Assembly (NCBI GenBank): GCA_024638285.1
Contig: JAHEKP010000002.1
Span: forward strand, 1-64,000
DNA: 64,000 bases
Direction: 5' to 3'
From: Cryomorphaceae bacterium
Lineage (GTDB): Bacteria; Bacteroidota; Bacteroidia; Flavobacteriales; Schleiferiaceae
Shown: piece by piece, positions 3,638 through 27,935 of the stretch
How positions within the stretch are numbered: position 1 is the stretch's first letter
Layout: every line of letters starts with the position of its first letter
Notes under the pieces: generated by a model
Database searches by the model: none
Seen by the model: the letters and a program-made list of their open reading frames with translations, nothing else
What the model was told of the DNA's origin: nothing
Made by a program: the position numbers and the translations under genes

Positions 3638-4471
3638 TTAGAAAACCTTTAAAAAGCCACGGAGTGCAGAGACTTGCTGAGCCATAATATAGCCAGTGAA
3701 TAATTGTTGCATCCCTCGTAAAAGCATCAAGATTACTAGAAGTGAATTGTCCGAAATGGATACATCTAATGCGTGAGCAATAAATAAGGCAACAATGAGA
3801 GTACTAACAATAATAAACTCTCTGAGATTTTTATTTACACTATCTAGGCGCGCCGCTTTGTAGCGAGCATCGCGCCAGTTGGCTGTGATGGATTGATCCT
3901 CCTCTAATTCTGATTGAAGTGCACTTACCTGTTCATGCGCTTGGTCTTGTTGTTTTTTAAGAACCCGCATGGGCACAAGCCACAACAATAAAATGCTTAG
4001 AATAATTCCTCCAAACTCCGGAAATAATGCGATGCCCACTCCGGTGAAGAGCATGCCCGGCAACAGTTGTGACCAGCCCACCAGTAAAAAATTGATGCTT
4101 TGAACACTTTTGCCAAAAACAGTTTTAAGCTTTTGCCTTTCAGATGGGGTTGAATTCGTTCTGAAATCAGCGAGAAGTTGAATGCGTGTGGATGCATTTA
4201 TAAATTGGCTATACATACCAACGAATAGACGAAGTAGCAACAGCAGTAGTAGACTAAGCACGTAATGCACCACCTCAATCTTAGTAGCACCAAAGACTAT
4301 GTATTCAGTACTTAAAAACAACGTTCGTATCAACGGTAGCGAGAGTAAAATGGGTAGTGTTTCTAAAATACCGCTGATGCCTGTAACAGCTAGCACCCAT
4401 CCCAATGAAGGAATATTTTGTTGCTTACGATAAAAATTTATCGCCAGTGCTATGCCGTTTGAGTGATTCAT
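3638..4471 (-). CDS. Integral membrane protein resembling a solitary ABC-exporter membrane domain
   Basis: The protein has 277 residues and about five to six hydrophobic segments (roughly residues 22-50, 64-86, 130-165, 215-235, 240-262). The order is two helices, a charged amphipathic connector (residues 90-125), two helices, then a long Lys/Glu/Gln-rich segment (170-210) before the last helices. This resembles the type-I ABC exporter transmembrane domain, including the SGILETLPILLSLPL-like start. No Walker A, signature or Walker B motif follows; the frame stops directly after the last helix. Its start overlaps the ribBA stop by four bases (ATGA), so it is the last gene of the ftsK-lolA-glycosyltransferase run. 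It may partner with an ATPase encoded elsewhere or be a relic. The similarity is inferred from topology only. Confidence 0.5.
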   Translation of the reverse strand: MNHSNGIALAINFYRKQQNIPSLGWVLAVTGISGILETLPILLSLPLIRTLFLSTEYIVFGATKIEVVHYVLSLLLLLLLRLFVGMYSQFINASTRIQLLADFRTNSTPSERQKLKTVFGKSVQSINFLLVGWSQLLPGMLFTGVGIALFPEFGGIILSILLLWLVPMRVLKKQQDQAHEQVSALQSELEEDQSITANWRDARYKAARLDSVNKNLREFIIVSTLIVALFIAHALDVSISDNSLLVILMLLRGMQQLFTGYIMAQQVSALRGFLKVF

Positions 4472-21403: not shown

Positions 21404-24175
21404 ATGAATAAGACCTTTATTTTTATCGCACTTCTTTGCGGGGGTTCACTTTATGCTCAATTGAGCGGAGTTGTTGTTGATCCGCGTGGTGAATCTGTTG
21501 TTGGCGCGAGCGTGGTACTATTAAGTCAATCGATGCCTACAACTATTGGGACGGTTACAGATTTCGACGGCAACTGGTCACTAAATATTTATGGAAAGAA
21601 TGCGGAGGGTGCAGTTGTTCAAGTAAAAAGCATGGGTTATCAGTCCTTAGATTTTAGGACAACAAAAACCACAGGTAACCGTATAACGCTTCAGCCGGAT
21701 CAAAACCTTCTTAAAGAAGTGAGTGTAGTTCAGCAGCGGCTTAGTGCTCAACAAGAGAAAAGTGCACTTACTGTAGAGAGTATGGATGCACTCGCCATAA
21801 AGGAGAGTCCTAGTGTGAGTTTTTATGATCATTTAGGCACCTTAAAAGGTGTTGACTTAACTAGTGCAAGTATTGGGTTTAAAATCATTAATACGAGAGG
21901 TTTCAATAGCACGTCTCCAGTACGATCGCTGCAACTTATTGATGGAGTAGACAATCAGAGTCCAGGGTTGAATTTTAGTTTAGGTAATTTTTTAGGTGCA
22001 CCAGACTTGGATATAGTTACTGTCGATGTTATTGCAGGCGCGAGTACCGCATTTTACGGCCCTAGTGCTTTCAATGGGGTAATTGCCATGCAAACGAAAG
22101 ATCCGTTTCAATTCACAGGATTGAGCGCAAGCTTGAAGGCTGGAGAGCGTAATCTTACTGAGTTTTCTTTACGTTGGGCGGCAAAAGTAAATGAAAAATT
22201 TGCCTACAAAATCAACGTATTCGCACTGAAGGCGGATGATTGGGAGGCGAACAATATGAATCCCACGGAGGTAAGCAGAGATGATGAATTCAACCCTGGC
22301 GGTTATGATGCAGTGAATCGCTACGGAGATGAGGATTGGTGGGATGATGGTGGTGATGTTAAATTCTACGCTGGAATGGGTAGGTTTTATCGCCCCGGAA
22401 TAGAAGAAAAACATCTGGTAGATTACGATACTGAAAATTTGAAGTTGACCACAGCATTGCACTACAAATTGACGGATGAAATTACGGGGATTTATGCATT
22501 GAATTTTGGTGCGGGAACTACGGTATACCAAGGTGATAACCGGTATAGCCTTAAGGATATATTGTTCTTGCAGAACCGCATAGAGTTAAGGAATGAAGGG
22601 AAGTGGTTTTGGCGAGCCTATTCCACTCATGAAGATGCGGGAAATAGTTACGATGCTTATTTCACTGCTTTGCGAATGCAGGATAGTATTGTTACGAATC
22701 AATTTTACAGTAATCAATACCGCACTTTTTGGCAGATTTTTTCAAAACCTCAAGTTCGAGCGCTTCCCGGAGCACCTGCAAACAATCTACCGGTCAATGA
22801 ATATTTGGACCAAATGAATCTGCTCATTGAGGATAATTTAGACTTCTTCCATGAGCTGCACGATTCAACGAGCAGTACTGTTTTAAATTTTATGGAAGCC
22901 GTCTATGGTTTTCCAGTACGCAATTATTTAATCCCTGGTAAAGCAGATTTTGAAAGTTTAAAAAATCATATCACTTCGACGCTATTCACTGAAGGGGGCA
23001 GTAGGTTTTACGATAAGTCAGCCTTGTACCATACTCAGGGAGAGCGAACCTTTACTTACGAAAATGGGGCAGTATTGAGAGTTGGTGGGAATTTTCGTTT
23101 GTACACTCCAAAATCCGCAGGTACGATATTCTCAGATACAGCAGGTACTGTCATTACCAATAGAGAAGCTGGTCTTTACGGAGGGTGGGAACAATCCTTT
23201 ATAGACGAACGTCTGAAATTAAGCGCAACAGGAAGAATCGATAAAAATCAAAATTTTAAAGCATTGATTTCTCCTGCAGTTTCATCTGTCTACAAGGCCA
23301 CTGAGAATCAAACCTTCCGCATAAGTTTTTCAAGCGCCATTCGCAACCCAACGTTGGCCGATCAGTATCTAAACTATAATGTTGGCAGAGCAGTACTTCT
23401 AGGCAACTTAGACGGCTTTGATTCTTTGGTGACCTTAGATAATATTGTGGACTATTTGGGCAAACCAGCGAATGAAAGGCTTTCACATGATTTTGGTTAT
23501 TTCAACGTAGATGCTATACGACCTGAAAAAGTCAAAACAGCGGAAGCGGGTTACAGAGCGACAATTGGAACACGTGTTTTTGTAGATGCTAATTACTACT
23601 ATAGTGTATACGATGATTTTATAGGCTACATTATTGGAGCTGAGATAGATGAGGGGACTACGGCTATTGACCGATTAAAGTCTTTGCAGGTTTACCGTGT
23701 AGCAGCGAATGCAACTGAACAAGTAACGACACAAGGATTTAGCATTGGAATGAACACTTTTGTAGGTGATTACCAAACGCTTACGGGTAATTACAGTTGG
23801 AACAAACTCACGTCTGCCGTTACAGACCCTATAGTCCCAGCATTTAATACGCCAGAGCACAAATTTAATCTAGGATGGAACATTCGTAATTATCCATGGA
23901 ATAATGACGATTCAAAACTGATTGGGGCAGGTGTGAATTACAAATGGGTGCAAGGTTTCGTATTTGAAGGTTCGCCGCAGTTCACCGGTTCCATTCCTTC
24001 TTATGGACTCTGCGATGCGCAGGTATCGTTGACACGTATCAAGGAAAAATCGAATAATAAACGTACCATTACTTATAAGTTAGGTGCAAGTAATGTCTTG
24101 AATAATAAAGTATATCAAGTATTTGGGGGGCCTTTAGTTGGGAGGTTGGCCTACCTAAGTATTCAAATTAATTAA
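21404..24175 (+). CDS. TonB-dependent outer-membrane receptor with carboxypeptidase-regulatory-like domain
   Basis: The protein has 923 residues. A signal peptide (1-18, ending LYAQ) precedes a CarboxypepD_reg-like beta-sandwich (about 20-100, with GVVVDPRGESVVGASVVLL). The plug domain (about 115-225) contains KIINTRGFNS, VRSLQLIDGVDNQSPG, VDVIAGASTAFYGPSAFNGVI, and then a 22-strand-type barrel ends at the C-terminus. It imports a ligand using TonB energy. No SusD-like gene is present; the next gene, 15 bases downstream, encodes a T9SS-secreted hydrolase-fold protein, suggesting a two-protein surface system. The ligand is unknown. Confidence 0.9.
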   Translation: MNKTFIFIALLCGGSLYAQLSGVVVDPRGESVVGASVVLLSQSMPTTIGTVTDFDGNWSLNIYGKNAEGAVVQVKSMGYQSLDFRTTKTTGNRITLQPDQNLLKEVSVVQQRLSAQQEKSALTVESMDALAIKESPSVSFYDHLGTLKGVDLTSASIGFKIINTRGFNSTSPVRSLQLIDGVDNQSPGLNFSLGNFLGAPDLDIVTVDVIAGASTAFYGPSAFNGVIAMQTKDPFQFTGLSASLKAGERNLTEFSLRWAAKVNEKFAYKINVFALKADDWEANNMNPTEVSRDDEFNPGGYDAVNRYGDEDWWDDGGDVKFYAGMGRFYRPGIEEKHLVDYDTENLKLTTALHYKLTDEITGIYALNFGAGTTVYQGDNRYSLKDILFLQNRIELRNEGKWFWRAYSTHEDAGNSYDAYFTALRMQDSIVTNQFYSNQYRTFWQIFSKPQVRALPGAPANNLPVNEYLDQMNLLIEDNLDFFHELHDSTSSTVLNFMEAVYGFPVRNYLIPGKADFESLKNHITSTLFTEGGSRFYDKSALYHTQGERTFTYENGAVLRVGGNFRLYTPKSAGTIFSDTAGTVITNREAGLYGGWEQSFIDERLKLSATGRIDKNQNFKALISPAVSSVYKATENQTFRISFSSAIRNPTLADQYLNYNVGRAVLLGNLDGFDSLVTLDNIVDYLGKPANERLSHDFGYFNVDAIRPEKVKTAEAGYRATIGTRVFVDANYYYSVYDDFIGYIIGAEIDEGTTAIDRLKSLQVYRVAANATEQVTTQGFSIGMNTFVGDYQTLTGNYSWNKLTSAVTDPIVPAFNTPEHKFNLGWNIRNYPWNNDDSKLIGAGVNYKWVQGFVFEGSPQFTGSIPSYGLCDAQVSLTRIKEKSNNKRTITYKLGASNVLNNKVYQVFGGPLVGRLAYLSIQIN

Positions 24176-24190: not shown

Positions 24191-25783
24191 ATGCCTATGA
24201 AAAAGTTTACACTTTTAATCTGCTCGTTGCTCGTATCATCCAGTGTAATTGCACAACGCTACACCACGGAGATATTCAACGACAATGAAATTGCCGTAAT
24301 GTCCGATGTGAGTTACGGTGTTAATTTCAATCCTTATGTGGATTCAGCAATGCTCGGTGGTACTAACCTACAACCATTACAAGCTGATTTTTACATGCCG
24401 TCACCTACGGCAGATACCACGACCAACCGTCCAGTGGTTATTGTTTGGCATACGGGGTCATTCATTCCTAAAGGGTTGAATGGTTCGCCTTTAGGAACCC
24501 GTCAGGACAGCGCTGTAGTAGAAATGTGTCGCCGTTTTGCAAAGATGGGATACGTAAGTATAGCAGCGTCATACCGTTTAGGTTGGTTGGCAAATAGCAC
24601 CAACCTTGACGTACGTCGCGGGAGTAACCTACTCGCAGTGTATTATTCCATTCAAGATGCAAAAGCGCTTGTTCGCTATTTGAATCTTACCCAAATGGGT
24701 GCGGGTAATCCTTACGGCATCAACGCAAGCAACACGATTATGGTTGGTCAAGGTTCAGGTGGGTACATTACATTCGCCTATGCTACCATTGACAAGCATT
24801 CAGAAGTGACTGCACCAAATAAATTTAAATACCAGGATTCTACAGGAATCTTTGGTCAACCTGTTTTACCTGGTGATTCTTATGTAGATACTTCTATTGT
24901 TGGAGATATTGATGGATTCGGTGGTGAAGTTGTGGTTACGGGTCAGAACACTTTAGGTCTGCCAACTATGGATTACAGTTCACCTGGGCGTAACTTTATC
25001 AATCACGCAGGTATGCCAGATGATATTTTGATGGCTATAAACATGGGTGGTGCACTAGGTGATGGTGCATGGTTGGAGCAAGGTGATGTTCCTATGTTAA
25101 GTATACATAGCAAATACGACTTCTTCGCACCCTATGATACCGGTATGGTTTACGTACCTATAGGACAGCAATTCTTTCCTGTAGTTAGTGTTACTGGTTC
25201 ATACGGAGCAATCAAGAAGGCAAATGACTTTGGTAATAACGATATCTTCCTAAATGCCAACTACACCGACCAAATCTGGGTAGATCAGCAATCCACTAAT
25301 CCAAACGGAGAAGAGTGTTTGTACACTGTAGAGATCGCACCTCCGAGTGCGACGATGCCTTGGGTGGTAAACACCGCACCTTGGAATTGGTATGATTCAA
25401 ATGATCCGTATGCCAGTCAGAATCCAGCGAACCCAAATAATGAGGCTACTTCGCAGGCTTGGATTGATACGGTTATGGCCTTTATCATTCCACGTATGGC
25501 AACTGTGCTTCAAGCTGAAGGTGTACCAGCAGGTATTGTTGAGACGTCGCAATCGTTCAAGGTTTATCCAAACCCTGCATCTAATGTCCTGGCCATTAGA
25601 GGTGCTAACGGAAGCACATTTACTAGTATAAAGGCGTTCGATATTACAGGTAGAGTAGTTTACGCTTCAGATGCAACTGGTAACAGTTTGAGCATTGATG
25701 TATCGAATTGGAACAATGGAATTTATTTGGTGCAAATAGCTACCGAAAATGGTGTCCAAGTCAAACGCATCGTTGTAAACTAA
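24191..25783 (+). CDS. T9SS-secreted alpha/beta-hydrolase-fold protein lacking the expected catalytic residues
   Basis: The protein has 530 residues; an ATG six bases downstream at 24197 (MKKFTLLICSLL) is an equally good start. The signal peptide ends IAQ near residue 22. An esterase-like alpha/beta hydrolase domain (about 60-430) shows VVIVWHTGSF (oxyanion-loop position, normally HGG), YVSIAASYRLGW, IQDAKALVRYL, and a nucleophile elbow reading GQGSGG (186-191), where GxSxGG is expected. The Asp region MLSIHSKYDFFAPY is present, but no histidine occurs after it. A T9SS type A sorting domain ends the protein (about 455-530, starting YPNPASN). It follows the TonB receptor and precedes a terminator. 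It is probably non-catalytic. Confidence 0.85.
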   Translation: MPMKKFTLLICSLLVSSSVIAQRYTTEIFNDNEIAVMSDVSYGVNFNPYVDSAMLGGTNLQPLQADFYMPSPTADTTTNRPVVIVWHTGSFIPKGLNGSPLGTRQDSAVVEMCRRFAKMGYVSIAASYRLGWLANSTNLDVRRGSNLLAVYYSIQDAKALVRYLNLTQMGAGNPYGINASNTIMVGQGSGGYITFAYATIDKHSEVTAPNKFKYQDSTGIFGQPVLPGDSYVDTSIVGDIDGFGGEVVVTGQNTLGLPTMDYSSPGRNFINHAGMPDDILMAINMGGALGDGAWLEQGDVPMLSIHSKYDFFAPYDTGMVYVPIGQQFFPVVSVTGSYGAIKKANDFGNNDIFLNANYTDQIWVDQQSTNPNGEECLYTVEIAPPSATMPWVVNTAPWNWYDSNDPYASQNPANPNNEATSQAWIDTVMAFIIPRMATVLQAEGVPAGIVETSQSFKVYPNPASNVLAIRGANGSTFTSIKAFDITGRVVYASDATGNSLSIDVSNWNNGIYLVQIATENGVQVKRIVVN

Positions 25784-25807
25784 ACGATCACGCTGAATGT
25801 TAATAGA

Positions 25808-25839
25808 GTCCTCATACGAACGTATGGGGACTTTTTTTT
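25808..25839 (+). terminator. Rho-independent terminator after the receptor/secreted-protein unit
   Basis: GTCCTCATACG pairs with CGTATGGGGAC (one T-G wobble) and is followed by eight T bases. It ends the 21.4-25.8 kb unit. Confidence 0.9.
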
Positions 25840-25873: not shown

Positions 25874-26719
25874 ATGATCAATTTCAATACGCAACTACAA
25901 GATCTGGAACAATTGCCCATTAGCGCTTTAGTACGTGCAGCCCGTTATGGCGATGGTGTTTTTGAAACCATTAGAATGCGTGAGGGTAAGCTACTCTTTA
26001 TTGAAGATCATTATTTTCGATTAATGGCCAGTATGCGAATTCTTCGCATGTCGATACCAATGGAATTTACTCCAGAGTTTATTGTTGATCAATCCCTGCG
26101 CCTCGCTGAAGAATGCGGTTTTGAAAATGGCAAGTTGCGATTGCAGATCATTCGAAGTGGTGGAGGTACCTATACGCCCAATAACAATAGCGTAGATTGG
26201 TGGATGGAATTGGATCCTTTGGAGCAAAAGGATTATGTCTTAAATGAACAAGGGCTTACTGTTGAACTCTTTAAGGATCATTACGTGCAACCTGGACTAC
26301 TCTCCACATTAAAAAGTAGTAATGCGCTACCTTACGTATTAGGGAGCATCTATGCTCAAGAGAACGATTATGATGCAGTCCTTTTGGTCAATGACGCAAA
26401 GCAATTGGTCGAAGCGAATTATGGAAACGTATTCCTAGTACAGGGGAATACGCTGCGTACAGCCCCCTTAAACGATGGAGCACTACGTGGGGTTTTTAGA
26501 AAGAATGTGCTTGAATGGGCAAAAGATGTACAATTGGAATTACAGGAAGCCTCAATCAATCCATTTGACCTTCAAAAGGCGGATGAAGTTTGGATTACCA
26601 ATACTATTCGGGGTATAGAGTGGGTAGGGCAGTACCGTAAAAAATCTTACCATAATGCGAAAGCAAAAGAAATGATTGCAATGATTAACCGAAAACTGAA
26701 TGTTTTAGGCGCACTCTAA
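25874..26719 (+). CDS. Class IV aminotransferase, aminodeoxychorismate lyase-like
   Basis: The protein has 281 residues with fold-type IV PLP-enzyme features: YGDGVFETIRM near residue 35, LFIEDHYFRL, the catalytic lysine in STLKSSNALPYV (about 146), the VEANYGNVFLV segment (about 180) and a late EVWITNTIRGIEWVG. These suit 4-amino-4-deoxychorismate lyase (p-aminobenzoate for folate) or a branched-chain/D-amino-acid aminotransferase; the length and TNTIRG-type end favour the lyase-like group. The 3' end overlaps the convergent yqgE gene by four bases. Confidence 0.75.
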   Translation: MINFNTQLQDLEQLPISALVRAARYGDGVFETIRMREGKLLFIEDHYFRLMASMRILRMSIPMEFTPEFIVDQSLRLAEECGFENGKLRLQIIRSGGGTYTPNNNSVDWWMELDPLEQKDYVLNEQGLTVELFKDHYVQPGLLSTLKSSNALPYVLGSIYAQENDYDAVLLVNDAKQLVEANYGNVFLVQGNTLRTAPLNDGALRGVFRKNVLEWAKDVQLELQEASINPFDLQKADEVWITNTIRGIEWVGQYRKKSYHNAKAKEMIAMINRKLNVLGAL

Positions 26720-27279
26720 TTCATCCACGGATCCTCTGGAGCATTGGCCCATAGGGCAAACTCACCGCCCAATGTCTTCATATAGATTCTCCATGCCTCA
26801 CCTGAGAGTGTTAACGGTTCTATTTCAAACGGGGGAGTTAATACGATCCAAGTCCCGTTTTTGATTTCTTCTTCTAGCTGGCCCTCAGCCCAACCACTAT
26901 AACCTAAGAAAAATTTACAACGGGCTTCTTCAAGTTTTAATTCTCGAGCCGTTTTAATTGCCTCTTGCAAGACGGAATAATCACCACCTAAATACAGGCC
27001 GTTTCCTGCAGGTATAGCTCCGTGTAGCGTATCCATCGTATGCAAATAGAAGAGTGCATCTTGTTCCACTGGTCCACCATAATAGATAGGATCTTCACCT
27101 GGCAGTTGATTCATAAAATCTTGAGCGAGCAGCGAAGAGTTCTTATTCAAGGTAAATCCGAGCGAACCGTCTTTATCGTGTGTTGTTAGATAAACTACCG
27201 ATTGCTCAAAAAAGCCATCACCAATAAGCGGTTTAGAAATTAAAAGTGCGCCTTTTTGAGGACGGTTTTTGTTTTGCAT
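26716..27279 (-). CDS. YqgE/AlgH family protein
   Basis: The protein has 187 residues. Family hallmarks are KGALLISKPLIGDGFFEQSVVYLTTHD at the N-terminus, GSLGFTLNK, IYYGGPVEQDALFYLH, and FFLGYSGWAEGQLEEEIKNGTW. Function is unknown; the family (DUF179) is widespread and often sits near housekeeping genes. It is cytoplasmic, with no signal or membrane helix. It shares a 17-base divergent gap with pdxH and overlaps the convergent aminotransferase gene at its 3' end. Confidence 0.92.
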   Translation of the reverse strand: MQNKNRPQKGALLISKPLIGDGFFEQSVVYLTTHDKDGSLGFTLNKNSSLLAQDFMNQLPGEDPIYYGGPVEQDALFYLHTMDTLHGAIPAGNGLYLGGDYSVLQEAIKTARELKLEEARCKFFLGYSGWAEGQLEEEIKNGTWIVLTPPFEIEPLTLSGEAWRIYMKTLGGEFALWANAPEDPWMN

Positions 27280-27296
27280 TACACTAATTTAGTACT

Positions 27297-27935
27297 ATGG
27301 ATTTACACAACATACGTGAAGATTATAAGTTCGACTCACTGCTAGAAGCGAATCTACATCAAAACCCGTTCGACCAATTTAAAGATTGGTTTGAGAGCTA
27401 TCAACATTTAGGGGTAAAAGATGCCAACGCTATGGCCATTGCTACTGTAGGGGAAGATGGAATACCGCAGAATAGAATTGTCTTGCTAAAAGAGGTACGT
27501 CAAGATGGATTAGTGTTCTACACTAACTATGCATCAGACAAAGGACAGCAACTTATACAGAACCCAAATATCAGCGCACTCTTTTTTTGGCGTGAACAGG
27601 AACGGCAGATTCGCATTACTGGAACTATTAGTAAAATAGATGATCAGGAGAACGAAAGTTATTTTAGTACACGTCCTTATCTCAGTAAGATTGGTGCAGC
27701 AGCGTCAGATCAAAGTAGTCCAATCAAAGACAGAATGGCATTAGAGGCTAAATTTGAAGCATTTCAACAACAATATCCTGAGGGTAGTGTAGTTCCCAAA
27801 CCGGAATCGTGGGGAGGCTTTCTAATCACTCCCAAATCCTTTGAATTCTGGCAAGGCAGGTCAGGTAGACTACATGACCGTATTATCTATACTTCTAAGG
27901 ATGGAGATTGGCTCACCAAACGTTTACAGCCATAG
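27297..27935 (+). CDS. pdxH: Pyridoxamine 5'-phosphate oxidase
   Basis: The protein has 212 residues. FMN- and substrate-binding motifs are NRIVLLKEVRQDGLVFYTNY, the RQIRITG segment, SYFSTRPYLSKIGAAASDQSSPI, and the C-terminal PKSFEFWQGRSGRLHDRI...WLTKRLQP. It oxidises pyridoxine and pyridoxamine phosphate to PLP. The neighbouring PLP-dependent aminotransferase may benefit but is on a separate transcript. A symmetric terminator closes the gene. Confidence 0.97.
   Translation: MDLHNIREDYKFDSLLEANLHQNPFDQFKDWFESYQHLGVKDANAMAIATVGEDGIPQNRIVLLKEVRQDGLVFYTNYASDKGQQLIQNPNISALFFWREQERQIRITGTISKIDDQENESYFSTRPYLSKIGAAASDQSSPIKDRMALEAKFEAFQQQYPEGSVVPKPESWGGFLITPKSFEFWQGRSGRLHDRIIYTSKDGDWLTKRLQP

Follow-up and report, generated by a model that had tools for sequence, protein, structure and literature searches.

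The window, a stretch of 64,000 nucleotides of bacterial DNA, carries on its forward strand a gene for a hydrolase-like protein that we call the dead hydrolase, and the gene of a TonB-dependent receptor ends 15 bases before its start. The features of this gene pair are as follows.

21404..24175, + strand: TonB-dependent receptor, 923 aa, the conserved partner gene (PF00593, PF07715 and PF13715; adjacency; co-occurrence)
24191..25783, + strand: dead alpha/beta-hydrolase, 530 aa, predicted to be exported by the T9SS (ORF with ATG start, PF18962, sub-threshold BD-FAE match, family comparison)
24449..24457, + strand: HTG (residues 87-89) at the oxyanion-loop position, where the sister family has HGG
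24746..24766, + strand: elbow GQGSGGY (residues 186-192), from family counts and profile alignments
24752..24754, + strand: Gly188 at the nucleophile position, from family counts and profile alignments
25118..25120, + strand: Asp310, the retained acid residue (Asp in 75 and Glu in 3 of 78 unique members)
25265..25267, + strand: Thr359, aligned with the catalytic His of the sister family (family alignment)
25562..25780, + strand: type A T9SS C-terminal sorting domain (PF18962 and TIGR04183)
25805..25834, + strand: terminator-like hairpin of 13 pairs with a T tail, just 3' of the dead hydrolase, its position being suggestive only

Terminator-like matches across the region did not exceed the chance level in total; the promoter-like matches and most of the terminator-like ones, being no more frequent than chance, were dropped. 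The order of the next three genes (281, 187 and 212 aa; positions 25874-27935) is conserved in many genomes from the same family; elsewhere, these genes vary.

The C-terminus of the dead hydrolase matched PF18962 over residues 458-529 (E 1.2e-16; 61.1 bits against a cut-off of 27) and TIGR04183 (E 4.6e-15), which bears out the sorting domain claimed in an earlier note on this DNA. The N-terminus, judged by eye, resembles a signal peptide ending in ...VIAQ. The earlier note had also proposed that the catalytic triad of an esterase was lost here, with Gly standing at the Ser position of the elbow and a Ser shifted by one, HTG in place of the oxyanion HGG, and no His after the acid motif SKYDFFAPY. 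All three readings of the sequence are correct: the elbow and the HTG lie where listed above, and His occurs in the 530 residues only at positions 87, 203, 272 and 306, with none after H306. Its statement that the fold is otherwise well preserved went too far. As a single sequence, the body of the protein scored 20.3 bits against BD-FAE (PF20434), under the curated cut-off of 26.8; only its N-terminal half aligned well with esterases, and the C-terminal part that should carry the catalytic His consists of a different, Trp-containing sequence. A PDB search with the single sequence returned matches to the sorting domain only, and AlphaFold2 predictions reached pLDDT values of 40.7 (10-row alignment) and 37.8 (7 rows, domain alone), both too low for use. 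No second hydrolase of the dead type was found in the 1.7-Mb draft genome of the source, where five other matches covered the C-terminal part only, mostly the sorting domain.

Profile comparison placed the protein more firmly. The profile of the dead family (A2, 34 rows) and that of an intact sister family (A3, 32 rows) matched each other over 256 columns in HHalign with a probability of 100% (E 8.7e-58), and all 34 aligned dead members matched BD-FAE at E <=0.01, the window protein staying below the curated cut-off. Against solved structures, the intact profile found the esterase 5ao9 (E 5.7e-27) with elbow and acid aligned; the dead profile gave weak but correctly aligned matches, the best being neuroligin-4 (E 9.8e-6), followed by esterases. 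In these alignments, the Gly of the dead elbow is matched by Gly in the neuroligin motif GSGAGA and by the elbow Ser in the esterases. These results indicate, at the level of sequence profiles, that the dead and intact families form one superfamily.

We then surveyed the order. Matches were present in 129 of 296 genomes, and 100 matching ORFs were extracted from matched loci and 60 further fetched regions, weaker matches that were unfetched or unlisted being left out; removal of two fragments shorter than 300 aa left 98 ORFs for classification. The check on elbow conservation proposed earlier was borne out in 78 of these 98 relatives, which form a dead class with the elbow G-x-G-[ST]-G-[GA]-Y and no equivalent of the catalytic His. 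The other 20 belong to the intact sister class, which is shorter and has a G-x-S-A-G elbow; its Ser, the second position of HGG, the Asp and the His were each present in 20 of 20. In the dead class, position 188 is Gly throughout (78/78), position 189 is Ser in 53 and Thr in 25, position 88 is Thr in 76 and Ser in 2, and the column of the sister's His holds Thr, Asn, Ser and other residues, never His. The Gly count alone is circular, because the dead class was defined by its elbow motif. Support free of this circularity comes from the absence of any ORF intermediate between the classes among the 98 and from a tree of 66 rows, in which the dead class lies on one side of a single branch (SH-aLRT 100). 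A scan of viral contigs found no further relatives. In two distant dead members (L180 and L183), His87 of HTG is also replaced (GTG and PTG), with TGNFLP kept, and one ORF (L124, 8927-15364) encodes 2145 aa, with the dead hydrolase domain first and a long extra part after it.

With six members from other orders added, the dead set comprised 84 ORFs, of which 78 were unique. Among these, the acid position 310 is Asp or Glu without exception. The claim of a lost triad therefore stands for two residues, the Ser (now Gly) and the His, and fails for the third, since the acid is kept. On sequence grounds this loss is well supported, and the dead hydrolase is very probably not a classical serine esterase. 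One way of keeping esterase activity would be for residue 189, displaced by one position, to act as the nucleophile. A Ser or Thr does follow Gly188 in 78 of 78 unique members, a count that is partly built in, as the motif used for choosing them allows only these two residues, and Thr takes the place in 31 of 78. Hydrolase elbows follow the pattern small-x-nucleophile-x-small, which a nucleophile at 189 would break, the residue two positions before it being Gln, Glu, Leu, His or others. Furthermore, His is absent from the His column, and nowhere after the acid is it shared by more than 15 of the 78 in one column. We therefore regard a shifted nucleophile as highly improbable.

Loss of triad residues would also be expected of a decaying gene, but this explanation is refuted by conservation, and we give it practically no weight. 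Intact dead ORFs of about 490-590 aa occur in many families, the elbow is conserved, and so is the sorting domain (32 of 34 aligned members). For the dead domain, dN was 0.051-0.082 and dS 2.2-3.6 in three close pairs, giving dN/dS near 0.02-0.04, a value to be read with the saturation of dS in mind. A lone mutation, a pseudogene and a frame error were likewise discarded, as the same elbow is found in relatives that are 97% and about 31% identical.

The class as a whole shows how the triad may have been lost. In a search with the full-length profile A5 (E <=1e-60), a dead-family member was found in 111 of the 247 sampled genomes, about 45%. We fetched 40 of these wider-class loci, picked across many family codes and not drawn at random; their 45 superfamily ORFs comprised one intact sister and 44 dead relatives. 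The nucleophile position in the 44 is Gly in 35, Ser in 5, Asn in 3 and Tyr in 1, and His is absent from the catalytic column in all of them. Ser is found in four members of f106 and one of f124 (L215, L217, L223, L224 and L230), which read H[AS]GSFLP and GSSSG[AG]Y and lack the GxxH that follows the acid in the sister. In a tree of 78 rows, built by a quick method and rooted on the intact sister, these five and two Asn members of f111 (L216 and L218, elbow GSNSGGY) branch first (support 92), and the remaining dead members group together (support 97) inside a dead clade with support 100; 17 of the 78 rows are unlabelled, all of them A2 and A3 rows of known type, with which their places in the tree agree. 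All seven basal members lack the catalytic His and have no receptor adjoining. Since basal dead members keep Ser or have Asn without the His, the simplest reading of these sequences suggests that the His was lost first and the Ser afterwards. The series from an intact triad through Ser without His to Gly without His would make a turn from enzyme to binder testable in living relatives. Tandem copies of the dead hydrolase occur at four loci (L228, L231, L232 and L233), and some of the second copies have further-decayed elbows (GEYTGGD, GVGFGGR and GTNSGGY).

In the dead family, N45, P93, R129, G131, W132, Y192 and W294 are kept in 78 of 78 unique members, and several of these vary or are missing in the intact family. 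Among the residues invariant in the 34 aligned members are also T88, G89, G186, G188, K211, N284, D310 and W398. Several invariant residues sit in motifs that form the esterase active site. Active sites and binding sites alike typically show such a pattern, which underlies the strongest rival explanation, namely that a rebuilt pocket gives the protein a new, non-serine chemistry, making it a true enzyme that acts on the substrate of the receptor before uptake. In favor of this are the kept acid and the large number of polar residues, close to the motifs of the former active site, that are invariant in 34 of 34, and Asp310, Tyr192, Lys211, Arg129, Asn45 and Asn284 would be the residues of that pocket. 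Gly, Asn, Tyr and Ser are, however, all tolerated at the nucleophile position across the clade, and one tandem copy has Phe just after it. To our knowledge, there is no hydrolase-fold chemistry that uses this set of residues. We consider such a new chemistry unlikely.

The paired TonB-dependent receptor, which the earlier note overlooked, is the most informative feature of the locus. The receptor adjoins the hydrolase on the same strand in 49 of 52 dead ORFs with enough flanking sequence (48 of 51 loci, as L008 is the same locus as L145), usually at a spacing of 15-50 bases. L180 and L183, checked by hand, are also adjacent, so that the pair is present in 50 of 53 distinct loci. Two of the exceptions (G253 and G025) have the receptor on the same contig but unlinked, at a distance of about 36-41 kb; in the third (G199), the copy concerned is a fusion of 2145 aa, and that genome has a further copy adjoining the receptor. 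The genes flanking the pair vary between lineages.

Over the 296 genomes, and uncorrected for phylogeny, both genes occur in 94, the hydrolase only in 3, the receptor only in 5 and neither in 194. Among the receptor-only genomes, the receptor match is cut near a contig start in three (G053, G100 and G229) and is a distant one (37%) in G196; G046 has no explanation. In two hydrolase-only genomes (G050 and G073), the gene lies no more than about 1.3 kb from the end of a contig; the third, G077, is unexplained. In the window's own family, both genes are present in 44 of 50 genomes and neither in 6, a count in which adjacent genes would drop out of drafts jointly. In the wider class, the receptor adjoins in 24 of the 40 fetched loci: 22 were identified by script, three of them with the receptor downstream, and the others are L235, judged from its coordinates, and L229, which has only an antisense ORF between the two genes. 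In each of the remaining 16 genomes, a receptor match of 455-897 bits lies elsewhere, and lesser full-length receptor matches in these genomes reach about 397 bits. A related receptor was not found within three genes of the intact-sister gene at any of 13 loci examined. At one locus (L202 of G757, ORFs at 3851 and 2529), the receptor, a dead form and an intact form (HGG, GSSAG and GxGH) follow one another on the same strand; the dead and intact forms there may serve one substrate. A term-based search of a limited literature collection returned no title or abstract on such a pair of receptor and dead hydrolase.

These data also bear on whether the protein is an adhesion or scaffold protein of the neuroligin kind, with the receptor merely a neighbour or co-regulated. 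This is the next rival after a new chemistry. It draws on neuroligin-4 as the best solved-structure match of the dead profile, a protein that itself has Gly at its nucleophile position. The receptor is retained, however, even in genomes where the two genes are unlinked, and conservation centres on the former active-site motifs, where a scaffold would be likelier to conserve its outer face. On balance, we think that such a role is improbable.

The loss of the triad, the strong conservation and the near-constant receptor pairing together suggest that the dead hydrolase catches a molecule for its receptor and does not cut it. The earlier note had proposed selection for binding, and we infer the same: purifying selection, conserved residues in pocket motifs and a fixed receptor partner all fit it. 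In the mechanism that we favor, an alpha/beta-hydrolase would have ceased to be an esterase before many Bacteroidia lineages radiated. To judge from its sorting domain, the protein would be exported by the T9SS to the cell surface, where the former active-site pocket may bind, but leave uncut, the ligand of the receptor, perhaps a molecule with an ester or acyl group. The ligand would then pass to the adjoining receptor for TonB-driven import, by a handover modelled on that of SusD to SusC and BtuG to BtuB; the binding and lid roles are proposed from this analogy. Against the mechanism are that the receptor is not a canonical SusC, that 16 of 40 wider-class loci are non-adjacent, that the co-occurrence is uncorrected for phylogeny, and that neighbouring genes drop out jointly from draft genomes. 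Taken whole, this reading, in which a non-hydrolytic binding protein exported by the T9SS works as partner to a TonB-dependent transporter, has, in our judgment, about an even chance of being correct.

A broader proposal is more tentative, and we hold it to be somewhat less likely than not. The pair may represent a further class of capped TonB-dependent transporter whose lid is a dead esterase delivered by the T9SS, and which arose, through loss of the His and then of the Ser, as cutting gave way to capture of an ester-bearing nutrient or metallophore for import. We know of no precedent for a T9SS-delivered lid. If the proposal is true, capped outer-membrane import in Bacteroidota would gain a lid fold and an export route that are both new to it, and this in environmental lineages rather than in the gut models.

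The dead hydrolase shares with BD-FAE and the bacterial carboxylesterases (PF20434, PF00135 and PF07859) the N-terminal half of the fold, the order of motifs and the position of the acid. It differs from them in having Gly for Ser, HTG for HGG and no catalytic His; it also has an insert near residues 205-275, a C-terminal part unlike theirs and a T9SS domain. The nearest relatives by profile and tree are the intact Bacteroidota sister proteins (about 370-540 aa; HGG, GxSAG and GxxH), which, unlike the dead family, keep the triad and had no related receptor adjoining in the 13 loci, L202 being a later exception.

According to PMC13404110, neuroligins have no enzymatic activity because their triad has degenerated. 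The dead hydrolase resembles them as a catalytically dead hydrolase fold outside the cell, its own location being predicted, and in the Gly found at the nucleophile position of neuroligin-4; the Ser-to-Gly changes in the two groups are presumably independent. In contrast to neuroligins, it is bacterial, transporter-linked and ends in a T9SS domain. The neuroligin architecture consists of a cholinesterase-like domain, a membrane span and a cytoplasmic tail, and the dead family shares with it a profile match to the domain alone.

Like SusCD and BtuBG, the locus joins the gene of a TonB-dependent receptor and that of a partner directed to the surface in a two-gene unit, as read here from the genes alone. 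Unlike the partners in those systems, the dead hydrolase has a T9SS sorting domain and not a lipobox, and a hydrolase fold in place of SusD or a beta-propeller. No SusD family was among its Pfam and NCBIfam matches up to E 1, and no Cys was seen by eye near the end of the signal peptide. The receptor also departs from SusC, scoring 97.8 bits against the model TIGR04056, below the cut-off of 368.25. In BtuBG, the surface protein BtuG, which is not a SusD, is described as a lid on a TonB-dependent transporter (PMC10404256). By analogy, BtuBG would be the nearest working model for the receptor and the dead hydrolase.
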